This document shows positions 7,564 through 18,880 of a stretch of DNA of 64,000 nucleotides, piece by piece. The first letter of the stretch is position 1. Each line of letters starts with the position of its first letter. This DNA comes from Streptomyces sp. NBC_01304 (GTDB lineage: Bacteria > Actinomycetota > Actinomycetes > Streptomycetales > Streptomycetaceae): positions 8,494,001 through 8,558,000 of the forward strand of contig NZ_CP109055.1 in the NCBI RefSeq assembly GCF_035975855.1. Direction: 5' to 3'. The position numbers and the translations under genes were made by a program. The notes beneath the pieces were generated by a model. It saw only the letters and a program-made list of their open reading frames with translations. It was not told the origin of the DNA and made no database searches.

Positions 7564-8013
7564 TCAGCTCTGGTTGAAGAAGCCGTCGGCGGGGCGGCTC
7601 GCCGCCTCGCCGTTGACGATCCGGGTGTCCGCCGGTGAGAGCAGGAAGACCCGGTTGGCCACGCGCTCGATGGAGCCGCGCAGGCCGAACGTCAGACCGG
7701 CCGCGAAGTCCACCACGCGCTTGGCGTCGGAGGGGTCCATGGCCGTGAGGTTGATGATGACCGGGACGCCGTCCCGGAACAGCTCACCAATGCCACGGGC
7801 GTCCCTGAAGCCGTCCGGGGCGATGGTGCCGATGCGACGGCCCTTCTCCTCGGCCACCTCGGAGGCCACCCGCACCCGCGGGTCGGTGACCCAGGCGGCG
7901 TCGCCGCGCTCCGGGCCCTCGGCCGCATCGTCTTCGTAACCGTCGTAGTAACGCTCGTCATCGTTGTCGTCGACGAGGCCAAGCCAGGCACTCGCCTTGC
8001 GCACCGATCCCAT
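7564..8013 (-). CDS. SepF-like cell-division protein (DUF552 family)
   Basis: 149-residue protein. The N-terminus [16 protein letters not shown] resembles the membrane-targeting helix of SepF. After an acidic linker of about 30 residues comes the SepF core: [44 protein letters not shown]. SepF polymerises and tethers FtsZ to the membrane. The gene lies outside the division (dcw) cluster, so it is a paralogue rather than the main sepF. From memory, S. coelicolor has SepF-like proteins SflA and SflB that restrain ectopic FtsZ/DivIVA localisation, and the surrounding gene set fits the SflA locus; this equivalence is inference. GAGGAGG lies 5 bases before the ATG, fixing the start. Confidence 0.88.
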
Positions 8014-8300
8014 GGACGCCTCCTCTCGCAGCGGTTCCTGCTGTCCGCCCCCCTATGGTCGTCCATGATGCGGATGCTGCGCCAAGTGGATAGTCGCCGC
8101 GCGGGGGTTTCGTGACGTGACTGGTGCAGAACGTACCCCCATTCTCCAAAGGCATTGCTGTGCGCGGCTGCTGACAGTGAGTGAAATATGATTTGTTGTG
8201 GCGTAAGAGTGACGGCGGGCGTGTCGTGCTGTCACTTGTGGCCGATACGATGCGGTCGCGCGTGTTCGACGCGTGTACTTGCGACTCTCGGGGGAGCGTC

Positions 8301-9560
8301 TTGTTCGGCATCGTCAGGCCTTGCAGCCATCGTCTCGGCGAGGGATTGAAGACCCAGTGGATGGCGCATCTCTGCGGGCTCTGCCTCGCACTGCGCAGTG
8401 ATCATGGCCAGTTCGCGCGGGTCGTCACCAACTACGACGGCCTGATCATCTCGGTTCTGACGGAGGCTCAGGCCGAGCGGGCCACCGACTGGCGGCGCAC
8501 CGCCGGGCCCTGTCCGCTGCGCGGCATGCGGACCGCCTCCGTCGCGCAGGGGGAGGGGGCGCGGCTCGCGGCCGCGGTCTCCCTGGTGCTCGCCTCGGCG
8601 AAGGTGCGCGACCATGTGGCCGACCGGGACGGGCTCTTCGCCCGGCGCCCGGTCGCGGCCGCGGCGCGCAAGGTGGCCCGTGGGTGGGACCGGGCCGGGG
8701 CGCGGACCGGGTCCGATGTGGGCTTCGACACGGCGGTGCTGCTCGACGCGGTCGAGCGGCAGGGCGGCCTGGAGGCGCTGGCCGGGCCCGGCACCTCGGT
8801 GCTCGCCGTCACCGAGCCGACCGAGACGGCGACCGCCGCGGCCTTCGCGCACACCGCGATCCTCGCGGGGCGGCCCGCGAATGCCCAGCCGCTCGCCGAG
8901 GCGGGGCGGCTCTTCGGGCGGCTCGCGCATCTCCTTGACGCCGTGGAGGACCAGGCTGCTGACGCTGCGTCAGGTGCCTGGAATCCGCTGACCGCGACCG
9001 GGACGTCGCTGGTCGAGGCGCGGCGGCTCGCCAGCGATGCCGTCCACGGGATCGGGCTCGCCCTCAAGGACGCCGAGTTCACCGACGCCAAGCTTGCCCA
9101 CGTACTGCTCGTGCACGAGCTGGGGCGCTCCGTGGACCGGGCCTTCGGCGTCGCGCACGGCGGGAGCTGTGCGCATCAGCAGCCGGGGCCGGGGAACGGT
9201 GGCGGGTTCGGGCCGCCGCCGTCCGGGCCGTGGGACGGCGGGCAGGGGAATCCGTATCAGCAGGGTGGCAATCCGTACGCGGGCGGCCCGCAGAACCCGT
9301 ACTCGGGTGGCGGGCCCGCCGGGCCGGGCGGACCCGGTGGCCCGGGATCCCAGTGGCTCGGTGGTGGGCCCTCGCAGCAGCCGCCGAAGCCGCGCGGTTT
9401 CTGGGCCGGCTGCGGCGCCTTCTTCTGCGTCTGCTGCACCTGCAAGATGTGCTGCGCCGACGAGTACGAGGGCCCCTGGTCGCGGAAGAAGCGCAAGGGC
9501 TGCTGCGACGACTGCGACTGCAGTGGCTGTGATTGCTGCTGCCCCTGTGACGGCTGCTGA
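8301..9560 (+). CDS. DUF5685 family protein with Cys-rich C-terminal tail
   Basis: 419-residue protein of unknown function, conserved in Streptomyces as DUF5685. The N-terminus FGIVRPCSHRLGEGLK then MAHLCGLCLALRSDHGQ contains a CxxC plus nearby His and Cys residues, suggesting a metal site. The middle (about 100-300) is mostly helical. It is followed by a Gly/Pro/Asn/Gln-rich linker of about 80 residues. The last roughly 50 residues contain 17 cysteines, in runs such as CVCCTCKMCC and CDCCCPC. The TTG at 8301 is chosen because GGGGAG ends 4 bases before it and because remembered relatives begin at FGIVRP; earlier ATGs add non-conserved sequence. The tail could bind metal, be lipid-modified or be redox-active. 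No function is assigned. Confidence 0.8.
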   Translation: MFGIVRPCSHRLGEGLKTQWMAHLCGLCLALRSDHGQFARVVTNYDGLIISVLTEAQAERATDWRRTAGPCPLRGMRTASVAQGEGARLAAAVSLVLASAKVRDHVADRDGLFARRPVAAAARKVARGWDRAGARTGSDVGFDTAVLLDAVERQGGLEALAGPGTSVLAVTEPTETATAAAFAHTAILAGRPANAQPLAEAGRLFGRLAHLLDAVEDQAADAASGAWNPLTATGTSLVEARRLASDAVHGIGLALKDAEFTDAKLAHVLLVHELGRSVDRAFGVAHGGSCAHQQPGPGNGGGFGPPPSGPWDGGQGNPYQQGGNPYAGGPQNPYSGGGPAGPGGPGGPGSQWLGGGPSQQPPKPRGFWAGCGAFFCVCCTCKMCCADEYEGPWSRKKRKGCCDDCDCSGCDCCCPCDGC

Positions 9561-9578: not shown

Positions 9579-10535
9579 TCACTTGAGCTCCGGCGGAGAG
9601 ATCTGCGACTTCTCGATCGCCGAGGCGCTGGTGCCCCACTTCTTCAGGATCCGGTCGTACGTGCCGTCCTGCTTGAGCCGGTTCACCGCGGCCTGGAAGG
9701 CGGGTGCCAGGTCCGTGTCCTTCTTGAAGGCGAAGCCGACGTCGAGGCGCTTGAACTCGTTGAGGAACTTCAGGCCCTCCTGCTGGTCCACGGCGTAGCG
9801 CAGCCCGTTGATGGTGTTCATCACCACATCGCTGCGGCCCTGTTGGAGGGAGATCCACAGCGCGCCCTGCTCGGCGTACGTCTGCACCTTGTACGCGTCC
9901 TTCCCGGCGTCGGTGCACACGTGCTTGTTCTCCTCGAGGGTCGCCTCGAAGGTGGTGCCCGCCCCGGTGGCCACGTTGAGGCCGCACAGCTGCTTCAGGT
10001 CGGTGACCTTCTTGAGGTCGCTGTCCTTGCGGGTGGCGAAGCCCTGGCCGTCGTTGATGTAGGTGACGAAGTCGATGGTCTTGCGGCGTTCGTCCGTCAC
10101 GCCGAAGTTGCCGGTGCCGAGGTCGTACTTGCCGCTGCCGAGCGCCGGCAGGATCGCCTCGAAGCTCGCCACCTCGCGCTCCAGCTTCAGGCCGAGCACC
10201 TTGGCGACGGCGTTCGCGAAGTCGATGTCCTGGCCGGCGAGGGTCTTGCCGTCCGGCAGGTAGGTCGCAGTCGGCGGGGTGCCGACGCTGGAGGCGAGGG
10301 CGAGGGTGCCGCGTTCGCGCACCTCGGCGGGGAGCAGCTTCGCGGCGGCCGGGTCCTTCTGCACCGAGGAGACCACGTCCTGGGTGGGGATCTTGCCGGT
10401 CTTGGCGGCCGGTTGGGCATCTCCGCCGGCGCCCGTCGCGTCCTCGCCCGAGCCGCAGGCGGAGAGCGTGAGCGCGGCGGCGGTGAGCAGGGCGAAGGGG
10501 ACCGCGATACGGGTCCGGGACATGGTTCTGGGCAT
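9579..10535 (-). CDS. Amino-acid-type ABC transporter substrate-binding lipoprotein
   Basis: 318-residue solute-binding protein of the polar amino acid (family 3) type. The signal peptide MPRTMSRTRIAVPFALLTAAALTLSAC ends in a lipobox (LSAC), so the mature protein is lipid-anchored outside the membrane. Family features include VRERGTLALASSV, DIDFANAVAKVLGLKLE and NFGVTDERRKTIDFVTY. Two cysteines (KQLCGLN and KHVCTDA) could form a disulfide. The ATG at 10535 has GGAGA about 10 bases upstream; the frame upstream of it lacks protein character. It is transcribed divergently from the permease operon at 11042, whose products are its likely partners. A leader peptide and hairpins lie in its long 5' region, suggesting attenuation. 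The substrate is inferred to be a sulfur compound or amino acid. Confidence 0.9.
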   Translation of the reverse strand: MPRTMSRTRIAVPFALLTAAALTLSACGSGEDATGAGGDAQPAAKTGKIPTQDVVSSVQKDPAAAKLLPAEVRERGTLALASSVGTPPTATYLPDGKTLAGQDIDFANAVAKVLGLKLEREVASFEAILPALGSGKYDLGTGNFGVTDERRKTIDFVTYINDGQGFATRKDSDLKKVTDLKQLCGLNVATGAGTTFEATLEENKHVCTDAGKDAYKVQTYAEQGALWISLQQGRSDVVMNTINGLRYAVDQQEGLKFLNEFKRLDVGFAFKKDTDLAPAFQAAVNRLKQDGTYDRILKKWGTSASAIEKSQISPPELK

Positions 10536-10682
10536 GGCGAAGGCACTCTCCGGTGGTCCGGGCGGGGGAAGGCAGGGCATACGAGAAGGCAAAAGGGCGT
10601 ACGTGGAGGACGTACGAGAAAGCAGAAGGCGCGAGGGGAGGGTGGAGCGCTGTGGCGTGGGTGAAGGCGCGAAAAGGGGACG

Positions 10683-10714
10683 GCGTTCCACGCCTCACAC
10701 GGGAGGCGGAACGC
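10683..10714 (-). terminator. Attenuator-like intrinsic terminator in the 5' region of the lipoprotein gene
   Basis: Imperfect stem: GCGTTCC, two bulged bases and GCCTC pair with GAGGC and GGAACGC around a 6-base loop, 12 base pairs in all. Read on the minus strand, the stem is followed within about 10 bases by CCCCTTTT. It sits about 60 bases after the leader-peptide stop and about 150 before the lipoprotein start, the layout of ribosome-mediated attenuation. Folding is by eye only. Confidence 0.6.
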
Positions 10715-10734
10715 GGTCGACGAAGCGCGAGAAG

Positions 10735-10757
10735 CCGGGCCGGACAAGCGGTCCCGG
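10735..10757 (-). promoter_or_regulatory. Second leader hairpin (possible pause or antiterminator element)
   Basis: Eight base pairs (CCGGG+CCG / CGG+CCCGG with one bulged T) around the loop GACAAG. It begins 18 bases past the leader-peptide stop and lies upstream of the terminator-like hairpin. A role as pause or competing structure is inferred from position only. Confidence 0.4.
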
Positions 10758-10775
10758 GTGGAGCAGGGCGTCAGC

Positions 10776-10847
10776 TCAACAGGAGGACGACCACACGCGA
10801 CCGAAGTCGATGTGATCGCGGGTGACCAGCCACTGCTGCGAGTTCAT
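10776..10847 (-). CDS. Short leader peptide (HIDxxR...C type)
   Basis: 23-codon frame ending in VTRDHIDFGRVWSSSC and a TGA stop. The pattern R-x-H-[IV]-D-x-x-R-V-x-S-x-x-C matches the putative leader peptides that I recall being annotated upstream of sulfur-assimilation and amino-acid transporter genes in Streptomyces. There is no good ribosome-binding site, so it may be translated from a leaderless transcript. The Cys as the last codon would let a ribosome stall at the end of the peptide when cysteine is short. Two hairpins follow before the lipoprotein gene. The frame is seen directly; membership of the leader family and the sensed amino acid are inference. Confidence 0.7.
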   Translation of the reverse strand: MNSQQWLVTRDHIDFGRVWSSSC

Positions 10848-10918
10848 GGCCCAAGTGGAACAGGCATCCGTTTCTGCGTCAACTGTCCTGAGACGCACGG
10901 CTCACAGTATGGACACCC

Positions 10919-10949
10919 TTGACAGCTGCCCGAACGCGCGCCGTAGTCT
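10919..10949 (+). promoter_or_regulatory. Putative sigma-70-type promoter for the permease operon
   Basis: TTGACA at 10919-10924 and TAGTCT at 10944-10949 with a 19-base spacer; CGTAGT two bases earlier would give 17. The pair lies about 95 bases before the first permease start. The hexamers are visible; promoter activity is inferred. Confidence 0.5.
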
Positions 10950-11041
10950 CAAGGGCGGGTCGTGCTGAGGGGCGCGGCCCCACTCGCTGTGCTGTGTGAA
11001 GGCTTCACCGTGTTCGATCCTGGCATCCACGGAGCCTTCCT

Positions 11042-11917
11042 ATGTCTGTGCAATCAGACGCCACGCCCGATCTCCTGCTGAAACCCGAGCCTCCCGCCGA
11101 GCCCGTCAAGGTCCAAGACGCCGAACCCCGCGTCGTCCCGGTGCGGCGAACCGGCCAGTGGGCGGCGGCCGTTGCCGTCCTGCTGCTGCTCGCGGGCGCG
11201 CTCAACTCCGTGGTCCGCAACGACGCGTTCCAATGGGACGTCGTCGGCGACTACTTCACCACCGCGGCCGTCCTGCGCGGCCTCGGCCTCACGCTCTGGC
11301 TGACCGTGCTCGTCATGGTGCTCGGCTTCGCGCTCGGCACCCTGCTCGCCGTCATGCGGCTCTCCGCCAACCCCGTGCTGCGCGGCGTCAGTTGGGGGTA
11401 CGTCTGGTTCTTCCGGTCGACGCCGATCCTGGTGCAGCTGCTGTTCTGGTTCAACATCGGCGCGCTCTACCCGCAGATCCTCGGCGTCAGGACGGTGAAT
11501 CTGCTCGGCCCGATCTCCGTCGCCGTCATCGGGCTCACGCTGCACGAGGCCGCGTACGCCGCCGAAGTGGTGCGCGGCGGAATCCTCTCCGTCGACCGGG
11601 GCCAGGTCGAGGCCGCCCAGTCGCTCGGCCTCGGGCGGTGGCGCCGGCTGCGCCGGATCGTGCTGCCGCAGGCCATGAAGTCCATCGTGCCGCCCGCCGG
11701 GAACATGCTGATCGGCACGCTCAAGGGCACCTCGATCGTGTCCATCATCGCCGTGCAGGACCTGCTCTACTCGGTGCAGCTCGTCTATCACCGCACCTAC
11801 CAGGTCATCCCGCTGCTCCTGGTCGCCACCCTCTGGTACGCCGTGGTGACTTCCGTGCTCAGCGTGGGCCAGCACTATGTGGAGCGGTACTACGCGCGCG
11901 GTTCGGGGCGGGCGTGA
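11042..11917 (+). CDS. Amino-acid ABC transporter permease (TcyL/HisM-like), first of two
   Basis: 291-residue inner-membrane permease of the polar amino acid family. An unusual hydrophilic N-terminal extension of about 40 residues precedes the first helix. Five or more helices follow, with the EAA loop reading [21 protein letters not shown] minus its last residue, the contact for the ATPase. [15 protein letters not shown] is typical of L-cystine/histidine-type permeases. It begins the plus-strand operon and its stop overlaps the start of the FAD-binding protein gene (ATGA). A second permease gene follows, so the transporter is probably a heterodimer. The ATPase is encoded two genes downstream. 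The substrate is inferred from the monooxygenases in the operon. Confidence 0.9.
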   Translation: MSVQSDATPDLLLKPEPPAEPVKVQDAEPRVVPVRRTGQWAAAVAVLLLLAGALNSVVRNDAFQWDVVGDYFTTAAVLRGLGLTLWLTVLVMVLGFALGTLLAVMRLSANPVLRGVSWGYVWFFRSTPILVQLLFWFNIGALYPQILGVRTVNLLGPISVAVIGLTLHEAAYAAEVVRGGILSVDRGQVEAAQSLGLGRWRRLRRIVLPQAMKSIVPPAGNMLIGTLKGTSIVSIIAVQDLLYSVQLVYHRTYQVIPLLLVATLWYAVVTSVLSVGQHYVERYYARGSGRA

Positions 11918-13677
11918 TGCGGGCACAGCTGGTGATCGTGGGGGCCGGGCCGCGGGGGACCGGTGTCCTGGAGCGCATCGCGGCCAACGCCGGTGAGCTG
12001 TACGACGGTTCGGGCGTGGACATCCACCTGGTCGATCCCTTCCCGTCCGGCGGCGGCCGGATCTGGCGTGAGGCGCAGTCGCCGTTGCTGTGGATGAACT
12101 CCATGGCCTCGGACGTCACGATGTTCACCGACGAGACGGTCGAGCTCGAAGGTCCCGTCCGGCCCGGACCCACGCTGGAGGAGTGGGCGGGCCTCGACGG
12201 GCAGACCTTCCCGAGCAGGCAGCGGCAGGGCGGCTATCTGCGCTGGGTGTACGAGCAGGCCGTGGCCGCACTGCCCGAAGGCGTCGTCGTGCACGAGCAC
12301 CGGCGCCGGGCGCTGCGGGTCACCGGCCCGCGCGAGGGCCGGCAGCAGGTCTGGCTCGAAGGGCGGGCCAGGCCGCTCCTGGCCGACCTGGTGGTCCTGA
12401 CCCTCGGTCACCTCGACGCCGAACTCGACGAGGAACAGCGCGAGTTGGCTGCGTACGCCGAAGCGCACGGTCTGGTGCATCTGCCGCCCGACTTCACCGC
12501 CGACAGCGACCTGTCCGTGCTCCCGGCCGGGGAACCGGTGATCGTGCGGGGCTTCGGGCTCGCGTTCGTCGACCTGATGGTGCTGCTCACCGAGGGGCGC
12601 GGCGGGCGGTTCGAGGGGGATGCCTATGTGCCGTCCGGGCGCGAGCCGATCCTGTACGTCGGGTCGCGGCGCGGAGTGCCCTACCACTCCAAGATCGGCT
12701 ACACCTGGGAGGGCGAACGGCCGCCGCTGCCCCGCTTCTTCGGGCCCGCCGAGACCGATGAACTCCTCGCCAGAGAAGGCGGGTTCGACTTCCGGCGCGA
12801 TGTGTGGCCGCTGATCGAGAAGGAGCTCGGCTTCGCCCACTACCACCGCCTCTTCGACGCCCATCCGGAACGTACCCGCATCGCCTGGCCCGACTTCGAC
12901 GAGAAGTACGCCGTCTGCGAGCCGGGCAGCCCCGAGCTCGCCGCCCTCGTCGCCTCGGCCGTGCCGGACCCGGCCGACCGGCTCGACCTGACCGCGCTCG
13001 ACCGGCCGCTCGACGGGGTGCGGTATGCCTCGGCGGAAGAGGTCCAGGACGGCCTTCGCCGCTACATCGAGCGCGACCTGGAGCGCCGCCACGACCCGGC
13101 GCACAGCCCCGACCTGGCGGTCTTCCTCGGGCTGCTGTCCGTGTACGGGCAGGTGCTGCGGCTCGGCGACATCGGCGCCTGGTGGCACGGGTTCTTCAGC
13201 TATCTGGCCTCCGGGCCGCCCGGACCGCGGTTGCGCCAACTGCTCGCGCTGTCCCGGGCCGGGGTGGTGCGCTTCCTCGGCGCGGACATGACGGTCGAGG
13301 CCGCCGACGGGATCTTCAGGGCGGGCAGCGCCTCCCTGCCGGGGGAGTACGTCGAGGCCCGTGCGCTGGTCGAGGCCCGGCTGCCCAGCCCCAGCATGGC
13401 CCGAGCCACCGGACCGCTCCTGCGGGAGCTGTACGCCGACGGGGCCCGCGCGACCGGGACCGGGCTGCTCGCCGTCGACCCGGGCGACGGGCGGGTGCTC
13501 CAGCAGGACGGCCGGCCGCACCCCCGGCGCTTCGCGCTCGGCCCGCACACCGATGCCCGGGGGCCCGGCGCCTTCGTCAGGCCGCGCACCAACTCCGCGT
13601 CGTTCCGGCAGAACGACGCCACCGCCCGCGCGGTCCTGCGCTTCCTGCGCGACCTGTCCTGTAGCACCGCCGCCTGA
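11917..13677 (+). CDS. FAD/NAD(P)-binding protein (PF13454-like) in the transporter operon
   Basis: 586-residue protein opening with the dinucleotide-binding motif QLVIVGAGPRGTGVLERI (GxGPRG at residues 9-14). It continues with PSGGGRIWREAQSPLLWMNSM, typical of the FAD-NAD(P)-binding (NAD_binding_9) family. A second glycine-rich segment (VIVRGFGLAFVDLMVLLTEGRGG) probably binds the second nucleotide. The C-terminal part is family-specific and of unknown role. The start overlaps the permease stop, showing tight coupling. It could supply reduced flavin to the two downstream monooxygenases or oxidise the substrate itself; both are inference. There is no ferredoxin or reductase signature. Confidence 0.8.
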   Translation: MRAQLVIVGAGPRGTGVLERIAANAGELYDGSGVDIHLVDPFPSGGGRIWREAQSPLLWMNSMASDVTMFTDETVELEGPVRPGPTLEEWAGLDGQTFPSRQRQGGYLRWVYEQAVAALPEGVVVHEHRRRALRVTGPREGRQQVWLEGRARPLLADLVVLTLGHLDAELDEEQRELAAYAEAHGLVHLPPDFTADSDLSVLPAGEPVIVRGFGLAFVDLMVLLTEGRGGRFEGDAYVPSGREPILYVGSRRGVPYHSKIGYTWEGERPPLPRFFGPAETDELLAREGGFDFRRDVWPLIEKELGFAHYHRLFDAHPERTRIAWPDFDEKYAVCEPGSPELAALVASAVPDPADRLDLTALDRPLDGVRYASAEEVQDGLRRYIERDLERRHDPAHSPDLAVFLGLLSVYGQVLRLGDIGAWWHGFFSYLASGPPGPRLRQLLALSRAGVVRFLGADMTVEAADGIFRAGSASLPGEYVEARALVEARLPSPSMARATGPLLRELYADGARATGTGLLAVDPGDGRVLQQDGRPHPRRFALGPHTDARGPGAFVRPRTNSASFRQNDATARAVLRFLRDLSCSTAA

Positions 13678-13746
13678 ACGCTGCCGCTGCCCGGACCGTC
13701 AACGCTGTCGCTGCCTGTCGCTGCCTGCCGATTCCTGAGGAAACCC

Positions 13747-14643
13747 ATGTCTCTGACCGCTGATCCACCTGTCGACAAAGCTCCACCCCGGCCGCGCTCC
13801 TCCTCCTCCGACGACTACAGCGCCCTGAAGGTCGTGCCCGTGCGCCACCCCTGGCGCTGGGCCGCCGTCGCCGTGACCGCCGTGCTGCTCGCGCAGTTCG
13901 TGCACGGGCTCGCCACCAACTCCGGCTGGGAGTGGGAGGTGTTCGCCGAGTTCTTCACCGCCGACGTCGTCCTCAAGGCGGTGTGGATCACGCTGCAGCT
14001 GACCTTCTACGGGACCGCGCTCGGCTTCGCGCTCGGCATCGTGCTCGCCTTCATGAGGCTTTCGGCCAGCCCGTTCCTGAGGACGGTGGCCTTCGGCTAC
14101 ATCTGGGCGTTCCGCTCGATCCCGCTGATCGTGCAGCTGCTGTTCTGGTTCAACCTCGCCTACCTCTACCAGGAGCTGCAGTTCGGGATCCCCTTCGGGC
14201 CCGGCTTCTTCTCCTTCGACACGATGGGCCTCGTCGGAGCGATGAGCGCGGCCGTCCTCGGGCTCGCCCTGCACCAGGCCGCGTACGCGGCGGAGATCGT
14301 GCGCGGCGGCGTACTCGCCGTGGACAGCGGGCAGTTGGAGGCGGCGGCCGCACTCGGCATCCCGCGGCTTCGGCAGCTGCGGCGGATCGTCCTGCCGCAG
14401 GCCATGCGGTCGATCCTGCCGAACGCCGCCAACGAGGTCATCTCCCTCTTCAAGGGCACCTCGATCGTCTCCGTCATGGCGATCGGCGAACTCTTCTACC
14501 AGGTGCAGGTCATCTACGGCCGCAACGGCCGGGTCGTGCCGCTCCTGATGGTCGCCACCGCCTGGTACATCCTGCTGACCACCGCGCTCTCGGTCCTTCA
14601 GCACTACGTCGAACGTCACTTCGCCAAGGGAGCCACCCGATGA
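13747..14643 (+). CDS. Amino-acid ABC transporter permease (TcyM-like), second of two
   Basis: 298-residue permease paralogous to the one two genes upstream. Shared segments include [35 protein letters not shown] and the EAA loop [20 protein letters not shown]. As in its partner, the N-terminus is a hydrophilic extension of about 35 residues before the first helix. Its ATG follows the FAD-protein gene after a 69-base gap with TGAGGAAAC before the start. The stop overlaps the ATPase start by four bases (ATGA). It probably pairs with the first permease in an asymmetric transmembrane dimer, as in other amino-acid importers. Confidence 0.9.
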
Positions 14644-15437
14644 GCGCGGACACCACCGCCACACCCGTGTCCAAGGCCACGTCCATGGTCGAACTCCGGT
14701 CCGTGCGCAAGAGCTTCGGCTCGCTCGAAGTCCTCAGGGGCGTCGACCTGGAGGTGCGGGCCGGCGAGGTCACCGTCATCCTCGGGCCCTCCGGCTCAGG
14801 CAAGTCCACCCTGCTGCGGACCATCAACCACCTGGAGAAGGTCAACAGCGGCTGGATCAGCGTCGACGGCGCCCTCGTCGGCTACCGGCGCTCCGGCGAC
14901 AAGCTCTACGAGCTGCGCGAGCGCGAGGTGCTCAAGCAGCGCACCCAGATCGGGTTCGTCTTCCAGAACTTCAACCTCTTCCCGCACCTCACCGTCCTGG
15001 AAAACATCGTCGAGGCCCCGGTCGCCGCCCTGAAACGCCCCCGCAAGGAGGCCGTGGCGGCCGCGGAGAAGCTGCTCGCCCGGGTCGGTCTCGCCGACAA
15101 GGCGGCCGCCTACCCCAAGCGGCTCTCCGGCGGCCAGCAGCAACGCGTCGCCATCGCCCGCGCGCTCGCCCTCGAACCCAAGCTGCTGCTCTTCGACGAG
15201 CCGACCTCCGCGCTCGACCCCGAGCTGGTCGGTGAAGTGCTCGACGTCATCAAGGACTTGGCGCACCAGGGCACCACCATGATCGTCGTCACGCACGAGA
15301 TCGGCTTCGCCCGCGAGGTCGCCGACACGGTCGTCTTCATGGACGAGGGCCGCATCGTCGAGCAGGGCAGCCCCGGCGACGTACTCGACAAGCCGCGGCA
15401 GACACGGACCCGCGCGTTCCTCTCCAAAGTCCTCTAG
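14640..15437 (+). CDS. Amino-acid ABC transporter ATP-binding protein (TcyN/GlnQ-like)
   Basis: 265-residue cytoplasmic ATPase. Walker A is GPSGSGKST, the Q-loop lies in [18 protein letters not shown], the signature is LSGGQQQR, Walker B is [12 protein letters not shown], and the switch His is in [14 protein letters not shown] is diagnostic of the polar amino acid subfamily. It is the only ATPase of this type in the island, so it must energise both permeases and may serve both binding proteins. It is translationally coupled to the second permease by a four-base overlap. Confidence 0.95.
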
Positions 15438-15496
15438 CCATGCCCCGCTATCCGGCCGATGTCATCAATTCGGCCTTCACCGCCAGGAGTTCGTAC

Positions 15497-16486
15497 GTGA
15501 ATCGCACCCGCCGCTCCCTCGCCGCAACCGTCGCCGCCATCGCCGCCTCCGCCCTGCTCGGCGCCTGCGGAGGCAGCAGCGATGCCGCCACCACCGGTGG
15601 CAAGCCCGCCAAGGGCGACCAGGTCGGCGGCATCAACATCGGCCCCGACCAGGACCGCGTGCGCGGCAAGAAGGTCGCCGCGATCGCCGCGCTCGTGCCG
15701 GAATCCGTCCGTGAACGCGGCACGTTGAAACTCGGCGGCAGCGCCGACGCCTCGCCACCCCTCGGCTTCTACGCCACCGACGACAAGACCCGGATCGGCT
15801 CCGAGCTCGACCTCGCCACGCTCGTCGCCGACACCCTCGGCCTGAAGGTCGAGTTCGAGGCGGTGTCCTGGGAGAACCTGTTCGTCGGCCTGGACAGCGG
15901 CAAGTTCGACGCCGTCTTCTCCAATGTGACGGTCACCGAGGAGCGCAAGGAGAAGTACGACTTCGCGACCTACCGCCTCGACGACGTGGCCTTCGAGGCG
16001 AAGAAGGGCAGCGGCTGGAAGGTCAAGGGCCCGGGGGACGTGGCGGGCAAGACCGTCTCGGTCTCCTCGGGCACCAACCAGGAGAAGATCCTCCTCGACT
16101 GGAGCAAGCGGAACGAGCAGGCTGGACGGAAACCGGTCGACATCAAGTACTTCCAGAAGGACACCGACTACTACCTGGCCCTCCAGTCCGGCCGCATCGA
16201 CGCCCACCTCGGCCCCAACCCGTCGGCCGCCTACCACGTGGCCTCGGCCGGCCAGACCGAGATCGTCGGCAAGATCTCCGGCGGCGGCGACCAGGTGCAG
16301 GGCAAGATCGCGGCGACCACGAAGAAGGACAGCGGGCTCGTCGACGCCTATGCCGCGGCCCTCGATCACGCCATCAAGGACGGGTCGTACGCCAAGGTGC
16401 TCAAGCGCTGGGGGCTGAGCAGCGAGGCCGTCGAGAAGTCGGAGATCAACCCGCAGGGCCTGCCCAAGCCGAAGTCGGGTGAGTGA
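15497..16486 (+). CDS. Second amino-acid-type ABC transporter substrate-binding lipoprotein
   Basis: 329-residue binding protein starting at GTG 15497, which has AGGAG 8 bases upstream. The ATG at 15440 lacks any ribosome-binding site and would put an odd extension before the signal peptide. The signal NRTRRSLAATVAAIAASALLGAC is given here in outline only: an Arg-rich start, a hydrophobic core, then lipobox LGAC. Family features are VRERGTLKLGG, ELDLATLVADTLGLKVEF and SNVTVTEERKEKYDF. It shares the VRERGTL element and overall plan with the divergent lipoprotein at 9579, but the two are clearly different, suggesting two related substrates for one permease/ATPase set. It lies between the ATPase and monooxygenase genes in the same operon. 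Confidence 0.9.
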   Translation: MNRTRRSLAATVAAIAASALLGACGGSSDAATTGGKPAKGDQVGGINIGPDQDRVRGKKVAAIAALVPESVRERGTLKLGGSADASPPLGFYATDDKTRIGSELDLATLVADTLGLKVEFEAVSWENLFVGLDSGKFDAVFSNVTVTEERKEKYDFATYRLDDVAFEAKKGSGWKVKGPGDVAGKTVSVSSGTNQEKILLDWSKRNEQAGRKPVDIKYFQKDTDYYLALQSGRIDAHLGPNPSAAYHVASAGQTEIVGKISGGGDQVQGKIAATTKKDSGLVDAYAAALDHAIKDGSYAKVLKRWGLSSEAVEKSEINPQGLPKPKSGE

Positions 16487-16487
16487 C

Positions 16488-17564
16488 ATGTCCGGATCCA
16501 CGCGGGCCCTGCATCTGGCGGTCGCCCTGGACGGTGCGGGCGTCCCTGAGGCCGAGCACTTCGTCGGCCTCGCCCGCCTCGCCGAAACCGCCTCGCTCGA
16601 CCTCGTGACGCTCGGCGACTCCTTCGGGCGCCCCGGCCTCGACGCCGTGTCCGTGCTGGCCCGGGTCGCCCCCGCCACCACCCGGATCGGCCTGGTGCCG
16701 ACGGTGACGACGACCCACACCGAGCCGTTCCACGTCCAGGCGGCCCTCGCCACCCTGGACTGGGTCAGCCGGGGCCGGGCCGGCTGGCGCGTCGAGGTGT
16801 CCACGAGCGCCGCCGACGCCCGGCTCTTCGGACGCCGCGAGCCCGCGCTGCCCACCGAGGCCTGGCACGAGGCGGGTGAAGTCGCCGACGCGGCCGCGCT
16901 GTTGTGGGACAGCTGGGAGGACGACGCGGAGATCAGGGACGAGGCGACCGGTCGCTTCATCGACCGGGACAAGCTCCACTACGCCGACTTCCGAGGCCGT
17001 ACGTTCTCGGTGCGCGGCCCGTCCATCGTGCCCCGGCCCCCGCAGGGCCACCCGGTGATCGTGGTCGATGCCACCGAGCCGTACGCCCGGGAGGTCGCGG
17101 CCCGCCACGCGGATGTCGCCCTCGTCCGCGCCGCCACCCCCGAACAGGCCGGGGCGGCCCGTACCGAGTTGCGCCGCAAGGCGGCCGAGCACGGCCGGTC
17201 GCCGGACGCACTGCGGGTACTCGCCGCGCTCGTCGTCGACCTCGGCGGCGGTGAGCACTCCGCCGACGCGGGCCACGGCGGGGGCGGACCGCGGCCCACG
17301 GCGGACGGGCCCGTCTACCGGGGCGGCCCCGTCGACCTCGCGGACCTCGTCGCGCACTGGCACCGGGCCGAGGCGGCCGACGGCTTCCACTTCACACCGG
17401 CCCAACCGGCCCGGGACCTGGAGCGCCTGGCCAACGGGACCGTGCCGTTGCTGCAGCACCGCGGACAGTTCCGGACCTTCTATCCGGGCAGCACCCTGCG
17501 CGAGCACCTGGGACTTGCCCGGCCCGCCAATCGATTCGAGCTCGCCGGGGGGACCAGCGCATGA
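16488..17564 (+). CDS. LLM-class flavin-dependent monooxygenase (short paralogue)
   Basis: 358-residue member of the bacterial-luciferase-like (LLM) family, which uses FMNH2 from a separate reductase and O2. Features are the barrel strands LVTLGDSFGRPGLDAVSVLARVAP and TTRIGLVPTVTTTHTEPFH, and the C-terminal VPLLQHRGQFRTFYPGSTLR. That last element is nearly repeated in the next gene (VPLLQERGAYRTQYTGSTLR), so the two are paralogues, this one about 80 residues shorter. The ATG at 16488 is preferred to the GTG at 16479, because GGTGAG sits just before it. It resembles B. subtilis YtmO (CmoO) in family and setting, which would make it a C-S bond-breaking or sulfur-oxidising enzyme; this is inference. 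Confidence 0.85.
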   Translation: MSGSTRALHLAVALDGAGVPEAEHFVGLARLAETASLDLVTLGDSFGRPGLDAVSVLARVAPATTRIGLVPTVTTTHTEPFHVQAALATLDWVSRGRAGWRVEVSTSAADARLFGRREPALPTEAWHEAGEVADAAALLWDSWEDDAEIRDEATGRFIDRDKLHYADFRGRTFSVRGPSIVPRPPQGHPVIVVDATEPYAREVAARHADVALVRAATPEQAGAARTELRRKAAEHGRSPDALRVLAALVVDLGGGEHSADAGHGGGGPRPTADGPVYRGGPVDLADLVAHWHRAEAADGFHFTPAQPARDLERLANGTVPLLQHRGQFRTFYPGSTLREHLGLARPANRFELAGGTSA

Positions 17565-18880
17565 CCGCGGCAAGGAAACAGATCCATCTCGCCGCCCACT
17601 TCCCGGGCGTCAACAACACCACCGTCTGGGCCGATCCCCGCTCGAAGTCGCAGATCGACTTCTCCTCCTTCGAGCACCTCGCCCGGACCGCCGAACGCGG
17701 CCTCTTCGACTTCTTCTTCCTCGCCGAAGGGCTCCGGCTGCGCGAACACAAGGGCCGCATCCACGACCTCGACGTCGTCGGGCGCCCCGACGCGCTCACC
17801 GTGCTCGGCGCGCTGGCCGGTGTCACCGAGCACCTGGGCCTCGCCGGGACGGTCAACGCCACCTTCAACGAACCCTTCGAACTCGCCCGCAAACTGGCCT
17901 CGTTGGACCACCTCAGCGCGGGCCGCGCCGCCTGGAACGTGGTCACCTCCTCCGACGCGTTCACCGGGGAGAACTTCCGGCGCGGCGGCTATCTGGACCG
18001 GGCCGACCGGTACACGCGGGCCGCCGAGTTCCTGGCCACGGCCCGCGAGCTGTGGGACTCCTGGACGCCGGAGGGCACGCCCGGACCCTTCGCCCACCAG
18101 GGCCAACACTTCGACATCGAGGGCGAGTTCACCGTTCCGCGCTCCCCGCAGGGCCACCCCGTGGTGATCCAGGCCGGGGACTCCGGCGAGGGTCGCGAGT
18201 TCGCCGCGTCCGCCGCCGATGTGGTCTTCACCCGGCACGGCACGATCGAGGCCGGGCGGGCCTTCTACGCCGATGTGAAGGGGCGGCTCGCCAAGTACGG
18301 GCGTACGGAGGACGACCTCAAGATCATGCCGGGGGTCACCTTCGTGCTCGGCGACAGCGCGGCCGAGGCCCAGGAGAAGGCCGCCGAGATCCGCCGCCAG
18401 CAGGTCTCGCCGCAGAACGCGATCCTCGCCCTGGAGCTGATCTGGGGCCGCGACCTGTCCGCGTACGACCCCGACGGGCCGCTCCCGGAGATCGACCCGG
18501 ATCCCGGATCGGAGCTGGTGCAGGGCCGGGTGCGGATCGCGGATCCCTTCGCGGTCGCCGAGAAGTGGCGGGCCCTGTCGCAGGAGAAGGGGCTGTCCAT
18601 CCGGCAGACCGTCATCGAGACGACCGGCCGCCAGTCCTTCATCGGCACCCCGGACGCGGTCGCCGCCGAGCTCGACGAGTTCGTGCGGACCGACGCGGCG
18701 GACGGCTTCATCCTCGTGCCCCATCTGACCCCGGGCGGGCTCGACGAGTTCGTCGACCGGGTCGTGCCGCTCCTTCAGGAACGCGGCGCGTACCGCACGC
18801 AGTACACGGGCAGCACCCTGCGCTCCCACCTCGGGCTCCGCGAGCCGGAACGGACCGGAACAGAAAGGCCGACCCCATGA
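17561..18880 (+). CDS. LLM-class flavin-dependent monooxygenase, NtaA/SnaA/YtnJ type
   Basis: 439-residue FMNH2-dependent monooxygenase, full length for the NtaA/SnaA/DszA/YtnJ branch. Diagnostic segments are the N-terminal HFPGVNNTTVWADPRS, then FDFFFLAEGLRLREHKGR, the family segment AGRAAWNVVTSSD, and NFRRGGYLDRADRYTRAAEF. It overlaps the preceding gene by ATGA and the following DUF1684 gene in the same way. In B. subtilis the relatives YtnJ and YxeK act in sulfur salvage from S-alkyl cysteines, and the accompanying cystine-type transporter here supports a similar role. No acetyltransferase or deacetylase, which those pathways use, is encoded in this island. Substrate therefore open. Confidence 0.88.
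   Translation: MTAARKQIHLAAHFPGVNNTTVWADPRSKSQIDFSSFEHLARTAERGLFDFFFLAEGLRLREHKGRIHDLDVVGRPDALTVLGALAGVTEHLGLAGTVNATFNEPFELARKLASLDHLSAGRAAWNVVTSSDAFTGENFRRGGYLDRADRYTRAAEFLATARELWDSWTPEGTPGPFAHQGQHFDIEGEFTVPRSPQGHPVVIQAGDSGEGREFAASAADVVFTRHGTIEAGRAFYADVKGRLAKYGRTEDDLKIMPGVTFVLGDSAAEAQEKAAEIRRQQVSPQNAILALELIWGRDLSAYDPDGPLPEIDPDPGSELVQGRVRIADPFAVAEKWRALSQEKGLSIRQTVIETTGRQSFIGTPDAVAAELDEFVRTDAADGFILVPHLTPGGLDEFVDRVVPLLQERGAYRTQYTGSTLRSHLGLREPERTGTERPTP

Follow-up and report, generated by a model that had tools for sequence, protein, structure and literature searches.

A conserved cysteine-type leader of Streptomyces whose RNA tail is complementary to the divergent 5′ UTR of a sulfur-type operon

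The leader and its sulfur-gene neighborhood

In the window, by which we mean the whole 64,000-nucleotide stretch of DNA that was analyzed, the family 3 solute-binding lipoprotein gene SBP1 (9579..10535, minus strand; PF00497, E 5e-28) and its CGGAG-type ribosome site (10546-10553, minus strand) lie 3′ of a leader ORF on the same strand (10847..10776). The leader comprises 23 codons (MNSQQWLVTRDHIDFGRVWSSSC) and the stop TGA (10778-10776), with the cysteine codon TGT (10781-10779) directly before the stop and 240 bases between the frame and the SBP1 ATG at 10535; frame, spacing and terminal cysteine are thus as the initial annotation had described them. On the other strand, a divergent sulfur-type operon (11042..18880, plus strand) encodes, in this order, a permease, an FAD/NAD(P)-binding protein, a permease, an ATPase, a second binding protein and two luciferase-like monooxygenases. 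Its presumed promoter, assigned by consensus only, spans 10919..10949 (plus strand; TTGACA at 10919-10924, TAGTCT at 10944-10949), and its ribosome site with the start-proximal bases CACGGAGCCUUCC lies at 11028..11040 (plus strand). The top NCBIfam matches of the divergent permeases and the ATPase are cystine types, every one below its cut-off, and the second luciferase-like monooxygenase scores above the cut-off for the NtaA/DmoA family; from these assignments, the cluster is likely to serve sulfur scavenging. Two further neighbors are a gene for a DUF5685 protein with a very cysteine-rich tail (8181-9560, plus strand; PF18937), which is convergent with SBP1, and a gene for a SepF-family protein (7564-8013, minus strand; PF04472), which adjoins the sulfur locus and is kept in nearly all neighboring loci compared. 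At L073, L039, L067 and similar loci, the leader and SBP1 are separated by an inserted gene, either for a GNAT acetyltransferase or for a luciferase-like monooxygenase, and the leader stays first.

The leader had been said to fit a HIDxxR..C leader-peptide pattern, and this was borne out by its conservation. Among the orthologous loci found by a scan with SBP1 (best 80 of 187 relatives), the frame is intact in 79 of 80, the exception being L033, where an insertion shifts the leader’s last codons. When every synonymous codon was allowed, HIDFGRVW was found in 81 of 150 Streptomyces genomes, and the search for HIDFGRVW plus three more bases matched 21 of 394 genomes of the class and 1 of 137 genera. 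The leader also occurs beyond Streptomyces, at three loci from a different family of the same order. The conserved blocks are the promoter block, the leader, some 13 nt past its stop (GCTGACGCCCTGC, 10763..10775, minus strand, which can pair with leader GCAG and GGTCA in some folds) and a C-rich block (~10668-10633). The presumed −35 box of the leader promoter, TTGACG (10877..10882, minus strand), is a consensus assignment that is conserved in a 54-row alignment, and the presumed −10 box, TCCACT (10854..10859, minus strand), falls in the conserved block CGGATGCCTGTTCCACT; the promoter scan listed no leader promoter. Only six bases separate this −10 box from the leader ATG, which suggests that the leader may be transcribed without a 5′ UTR.

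The window leader matches profile NF042936 with E 1.5e-4 and 21.3 bits, below the NCBI cut-off of 45. Profile NF042934 has seven matches in the same genome, among which the window leader is not included, and, across the class, matches in 50 of 60 genomes. The genome carries six other such leaders, and its related leaders include ones before an SsuA-type sulfonate cluster and before genes for a sulfite/nitrite reductase, a sulfatase, an SsuD-like monooxygenase and a dicarboxylate-type symporter. Judged by this company, the leader is part of a sulfur regulon, and cysteine, already named as the probable signal in the initial annotation, is still the likely sensed amino acid because of the leader family and the sulfur genes behind the same-genome leaders. 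An unexpected neighbor was seen at L128 (own genome, C1:2003124-2008140), where a cysteine-type leader, HIDFGRVWSSSC, stands ahead of a peptide-synthetase cluster with a carrier protein (PF00550) and an adenylation/condensation protein (PF00501, PF00668).

Frozen codons and the UGU cysteine codon

The leader codons read CAC ATC GAC TTC/CTC GGT CGN GTG TGG, and across 81 loci (the 80 orthologs and the window) only the third base of the arginine codon varies within this stretch apart from the TTC/CTC alternative. GGT occurs at 81 of 81 loci against a background of 7.3% in the neighboring SBP1 genes, and GTG at 81 of 81 against 44%; among the matches listed in the synonym-tolerant search, the figures are 93/95 for GGT and 95/95 for GTG. 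The invariant bases form an RNA hairpin inside the frame (10792..10814, minus strand), CACAU-CGAC-(UUCG)-GUCG-(variable Arg third base bulged)-GUGUG, with nine pairs and a C(UUCG)G loop, in which the bulge is the free base of the arginine codon. GGT and GTG are invariant because both build this hairpin. At 38 of 111 loci it was compared with 300 synonymous recodings each and gave a mean z of −2.98, where 0 to 13 of the recodings reached the same stability; the complete leader, extended by 25 nt, is of ordinary stability (mean z 0.06). As far as conservation can speak, the leader frame and its internal UUCG hairpin are shown to be under selection, and the hairpin explains how synonymous sites come to be frozen in a coding frame.

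The cysteine codon is equally constrained. It is UGU (TGT in the DNA) in 80 of the 81 loci and lost in the remaining one; TGC makes up 99.6% of the cysteine codons in the neighboring SBP1 genes. The same codon recurs in the related NF042934 family, where TGT stands six residues after the arginine (R+6) in 33 of 33 readable leaders from a set of 36 loci, L191 having no cysteine there and L198 and L217 being unread; L192 is a match below the cut-off inside a long frame, and without it the count is 32/32. The remaining cysteine codons in 18 of these leaders are TGC in 10 of 12 cases, and in one long frame per locus TGT accounts for 30 of 136 cysteine codons. These counts are consistent with UGU as the sensing codon by a class-wide rule, and it is tempting to speculate that U:G wobble decoding of UGU might act as a sensitivity device. 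The frozen UGU offers a simple handle on amino-acid sensing by a single codon.

The leader tail and the divergent 5′ UTR

Between leader and SBP1, two hairpins had been noted, and both are present and fold better than shuffles in the window sequence: hairpin 1 (10735..10757, minus strand) with −12.9 kcal/mol (z −2.28; 7 of 200 shuffles as good) and hairpin 2 (10685..10712, minus strand) with −19.7 kcal/mol for the stretch 10676-10717 (z −3.79; 0 of 200 shuffles), the full 116 nt past the leader stop giving a folding z of −1.60. What did not hold was their reading as the full layout of ribosome-mediated attenuation with an intrinsic terminator. The T run does not directly follow hairpin 2 but is separated from it by nine bases, since the stem ends in ...GGAAC and is followed by GCCGTCCCC and only then by TTTT, and a consensus scan of 10500-11100 gave zero terminator-like sites. 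Both hairpins, moreover, lie outside conserved DNA. In a search of 41 genomes with a 345-base query, in which the leader stop is base 105, hairpin 1 occupies bases 124-146 and hairpin 2 bases ~167-198; the best match of each relative stops by base 121, about 16 nt past the stop, except in G014, where it extends to 141. Hairpin 1 is overlapped by two separate short matches, one of 35 bases (E 4.7e-4) and one of 39 bases (E 1.3e-4), and hairpin 2 had zero matches among the relatives. Because of this lack of conservation and the absence of terminator-like sites in the scan, the intrinsic terminator was rejected and the layout proposed around it is unsupported. Orthologs often hold some hairpin of differing sequence in this region (mean z −1.15, 53% below −1, 81 loci).

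The excess of C over G in the 110 nt past the stop averages 27.8 across 80 loci, compared with −1.6 for 166 further upstream regions from these loci; mean counts are 53 C to 25 G past the leader stop and 36 C to 38 G elsewhere. Only 1 of the 166 control regions reaches the leader median; the excess is 14 to 29 in the six other same-genome leaders and 7 to 32 in 27 class-sample leaders. Because the tract is C-rich and G-poor, Rho-dependent termination would suit it better than an intrinsic terminator, an argument from base composition in a tract where hairpins are frequent among the orthologs.

Within the C-rich block, the leader RNA holds segments that are complementary to the 5′ UTR of the divergent operon. 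The element D (10966..11003, plus strand) consists of UGAGGGG (10966-10972), CGCUGUG (10985-10991) and GUGAAGGC (10996-11003). On the leader side, segment A1, GCCUUCAC (10661..10668, minus strand), is the complement of D at 10996-11003 (plus strand), segment A2, CACAGCG (10648..10654, minus strand), is the complement of CGCTGTG at 10985-10991 (plus strand), and a third segment, CCCUCCCCUC (10633..10642, minus strand), contains CCCCUC, complementary to GAGGGG of the divergent 5′ UTR. The chain of matches between the leader tail (A) and D amounts to 21 Watson-Crick pairs in the window. On the DNA, A and D form a direct repeat on one strand (minus-strand 10668-10648 and 11003-10985, ~335 bases apart), so that only two divergent transcripts can use them as a duplex.

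This complementarity is maintained while the sequences themselves change: A variants and their matching D counterparts include ACGCGACAGC/GCUGUCGCGU, ACACAAC/GUUGUGU, ACCACAC/GUGUGGU, GCACAACG/CGUUGUGC and, in the window, CACAGCG/CGCUGUG. For the variable parts, the longest A-D run averages 5.52 in cognate and 5.02 in permuted combinations (z 5.5, 0/20000, 91 loci), and smaller sets of 60 and 33 loci gave z 4.6 and 4.9 (0/20000 each). Chained A-D pairs average 18.59 in cognate and 16.91 in permuted combinations (z 5.5, 0/20000) over 92 loci, which are those with both anchors among 118 loci, 109 of them distinct and 106 of these with the GAGGGGC anchor, the others having been dropped beforehand; thinning left z 4.06 (0/20000) for 60 loci and z 3.4 (6/20000) for 26. 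Three controls were null (z −0.85, 1.29 and −1.49), in which D was reverse-complemented, D was read backwards or the first 60 nt past the stop replaced A. The conserved first motif alone shows a small gain (79.3% paired vs 77.3% in permuted rows, 45/5000), and the energy-based duplex test is weak (−47.1 vs −45.3 kcal/mol, 701/20000). Allowing G-U pairs lowers the z of the longest-run test to 2.2-2.6, and at non-Watson-Crick A-D positions no enrichment of G-U was found (10 G-U vs 20 others), so that the G-U test does not separate RNA pairing from a DNA repeat. In 142 of 146 cases, the gap between paired runs is of unequal length in A and D, unlike a single DNA-binding footprint. Taken together, the leader tail is complementary in sequence to the divergent 5′ UTR and the match covaries by species; like the in-frame hairpin and the invariant UGU, this complementarity had been missed in the initial annotation. 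At L054 and L061, two or three tandem GCTGTCG-type motifs complementary to the leader RNA occur in the divergent 5′ UTR.

D is also complementary to the start region of its own transcript, its GAAGGC facing GCCUUC beside the divergent start codon over at least 6 nt in 71 of 100 loci and over 4 nt or less in 28 of 100. Blocking the D motif in folding did not free the ribosome site (unpaired 0.217 before and 0.216 after, 99 loci).

Leaders without SBP1 and the proposed trans action

The initial annotation had the leader control the binding-protein gene; as the sole job of the leader, this does not stand. We examined 51 distinct loci, namely 30 of the 95 from the synonym-tolerant search and all 25 matches of the search for HIDFGRVW plus three more bases, with duplicates removed: the leader is followed by SBP1 in 17 and by an SsuD-like monooxygenase gene in 12, 6 have neither, and 16 represent the SBP1 locus minus SBP1. 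Together with one from the conservation search, the latter make up a set of 17 SBP1-less loci, and in 16 of these the sulfur operon is still divergent from the leader. A search for SBP1 in the 17 genomes gave no match in 14, matches at 36-38% corresponding to the second binding protein in 2, and a copy elsewhere (64%) in 1; the positive controls matched in 3 of 3 cases at 69-77%. Since the leader persists in 17 genomes without an adjacent SBP1, regulating this gene is not its only job. At the 16 divergent SBP1-less leaders, the gain of cognate over permuted A-D combinations is modest (9.75 vs 9.20, 547/20000), and L251 has lost both motifs. The DUF5685 gene is convergent 3′ of the leader in 14 of the 17 loci, so that read-through from the leader could be antisense to it; we do not prefer such an action on the cysteine-rich protein’s gene as the reason for SBP1-less leaders because the gene is absent in the other three.

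A rearranged locus brings both segments into one transcript. The leader of L242 has undergone an inversion and now points at the FAD/NAD(P) gene, so that A (+70) and D (+165) reside in one RNA with 11 perfect pairs, followed by GGAGCCUUCACGCAUG at +208; the frame opened by the ATG past this site meets a stop after only 37 codons. Its sister species (L247) has the divergent layout with 14 A-D pairs in trans, and the two differ by a matched 2-nt indel in A and D.

On balance, we lean slightly towards a stand-alone regulatory RNA in which the leader senses cysteine and which also acts on the divergent operon. A leaderless-type promoter would produce an RNA starting at or near the leader AUG. When Cys-tRNA is short, the ribosome would wait at the single UGU before the stop, as we infer from the known family, and transcription would continue into segment A and, where present, SBP1. 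When cysteine is plentiful, the ribosome would leave, and the C-rich, G-poor RNA would be exposed to early termination, most likely by Rho. Once transcribed, A would pair with D in the divergent 5′ UTR, a step for which complementarity and covariation are observed and the effect is conjectural: because D pairs with the start-proximal bases and A resembles them, A would displace these bases from D, and translation of the sulfur genes would be favored when cysteine is short. Possibly, the effect of A on D is repression instead of activation. For the wider proposal, that a cysteine-sensing leader RNA acts in trans so that one ribosome stalled at a single UGU sets two operons, that this RNA outlives its own downstream gene and that inversion has turned it into a cis switch in one genome or more, and that the UGU rule is class-wide, we consider the chances about even.

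Other readings account for parts of these data. The leader might be a cysteine attenuator in cis only, acting on SBP1 alone via Rho or ribosome-site opening as in mycobacterial cys operons, with A-D secondary and the SBP1-less leaders being relics. Such is the known mode in the leader family, according to passages of PMC1262725 and PMC13236596, and the C-rich, G-poor tract past the leader would suit it, as would L245 and L248, where a ribosome-site-like AGGAGACC remains despite the absence of SBP1, which suits a recent loss in those two. However, on a tree built from three neighbor proteins of 38 loci, the presence of SBP1 switches ~10 times, with no fewer than 7 switches forced by supported branches, a well-supported four-species clade (L254-L257) keeps the leader frame though it is wholly without SBP1, and A-D covariation would be left unexplained, so that we regard a purely local attenuator as unlikely. 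Rather improbable, in our estimate, is a DNA operator, in which the direct repeat (GCCTTCAC..CACAGCG type) flanking both promoters would bind a looping regulator and co-diverge with it. Both segments do form a direct repeat on one strand in the window and the G-U test gives RNA no advantage, but the spacing of the repeat motifs differs in 142 of 146 comparisons, the motifs vary greatly across clades (ACGCGACAGC, ACACAAC, ACCACAC, CACAGCG), and the inverted copy of L242 nonetheless keeps the RNA complement in cis.

The ribosome-mediated attenuation with an intrinsic terminator that was originally proposed fares worse, and we consider it quite improbable. The hairpins that outfold their shuffles, and the varied-sequence hairpins common past the leader in orthologs, are what speaks for it; besides the missing terminator-like sites and the position of the hairpins outside conserved DNA, a ribosome stalled at the last codon and one at the stop would be 3 nt apart, so that ribosome position alone could presumably not pick between folds. 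Least of all do we expect a structure-based, riboswitch-like sensor with an incidental peptide, to which the frozen synonymous sites of the UUCG hairpin might point: the wider family retains the peptide pattern H-x-D-x-x-R-x-x-S/T/A-x-x-C while using other codons for it, the leader region as a whole is unexceptional in stability, and Rfam returned nothing at gathering scores in the window.

Several known systems share traits with the trans-acting leader RNA that we favor. The tna operon of E. coli has a leader peptide and presumed Rho control, both of which the proposed window system shares; the logic expected in the window is the opposite, with starvation rather than the amino acid turning expression on. 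The actinobacterial Cys-rich leader peptides (NCBIfam NF042934 cis_reg_atten, NF042936 Ms4527A and NF042933 Ms5788A), among them the polycysteine short ORFs of mycobacteria reportedly described by Canestrari et al. (2020), have in common with the window a short HIDxxR..C frame that precedes sulfur genes and has a cysteine codon near the stop; like them, the window leader may be transcribed without a 5′ UTR. The window leader differs from them in its score (21.3 of 45 bits), its single cysteine codon, its codons frozen by the UUCG hairpin, its retention without the downstream gene and its tail complementary to the divergent mRNA. Passages of PMC1262725 describe terminator-less cysteine leader peptides before cys operons of Mycobacterium and Propionibacterium acnes and before cbs of Bifidobacterium longum, propose Rho for the mycobacterial cys leaders and name the tna operon as a parallel. 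Those leaders resemble ours in having no conserved terminator and in polypyrimidine tracts with possible Rho sites; within those passages, the cysteine section of that paper names neither a Streptomyces leader nor pairing in trans. In rnTrpL/peTrpL of Sinorhizobium meliloti, the subject of PMC7298713, a leader-peptide attenuator product is reported to act in trans, as proposed here; in our case the presumed partner is the mRNA of the divergent neighbor, the pairing is covarying and two- to three-part, and the amino acid is cysteine. No published description of this element or its motif strings was found in the titles, abstract starts and passages searched, and what appears to be new is the complementarity, covarying among species, between leader tail and divergent 5′ UTR. 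Attenuators with leader peptides are commonly taken to act in cis on the gene behind them; a leader kept without that gene beside it, together with a covarying tail, makes trans action of attenuator RNAs testable by matched base swaps in common laboratory strains of Streptomyces, and a covariance model built on A and D could help to detect further divergent pairs.

A second class of leaders (class B; MNAQQRLVSRDHIDFGRVWSAACCA type; L143, L145, L150 and similar loci) precedes the gene of an SsuD-like monooxygenase, with a divergent permease and a conserved GC-rich hairpin past the leader stop. No consistent pairing partner was found for class B leaders before this monooxygenase at 10 loci. At L137, a further leader frame, LVRRRHVDFGRVASAVCCSA, lies upstream of the class B leader, divergent from it on the other strand.
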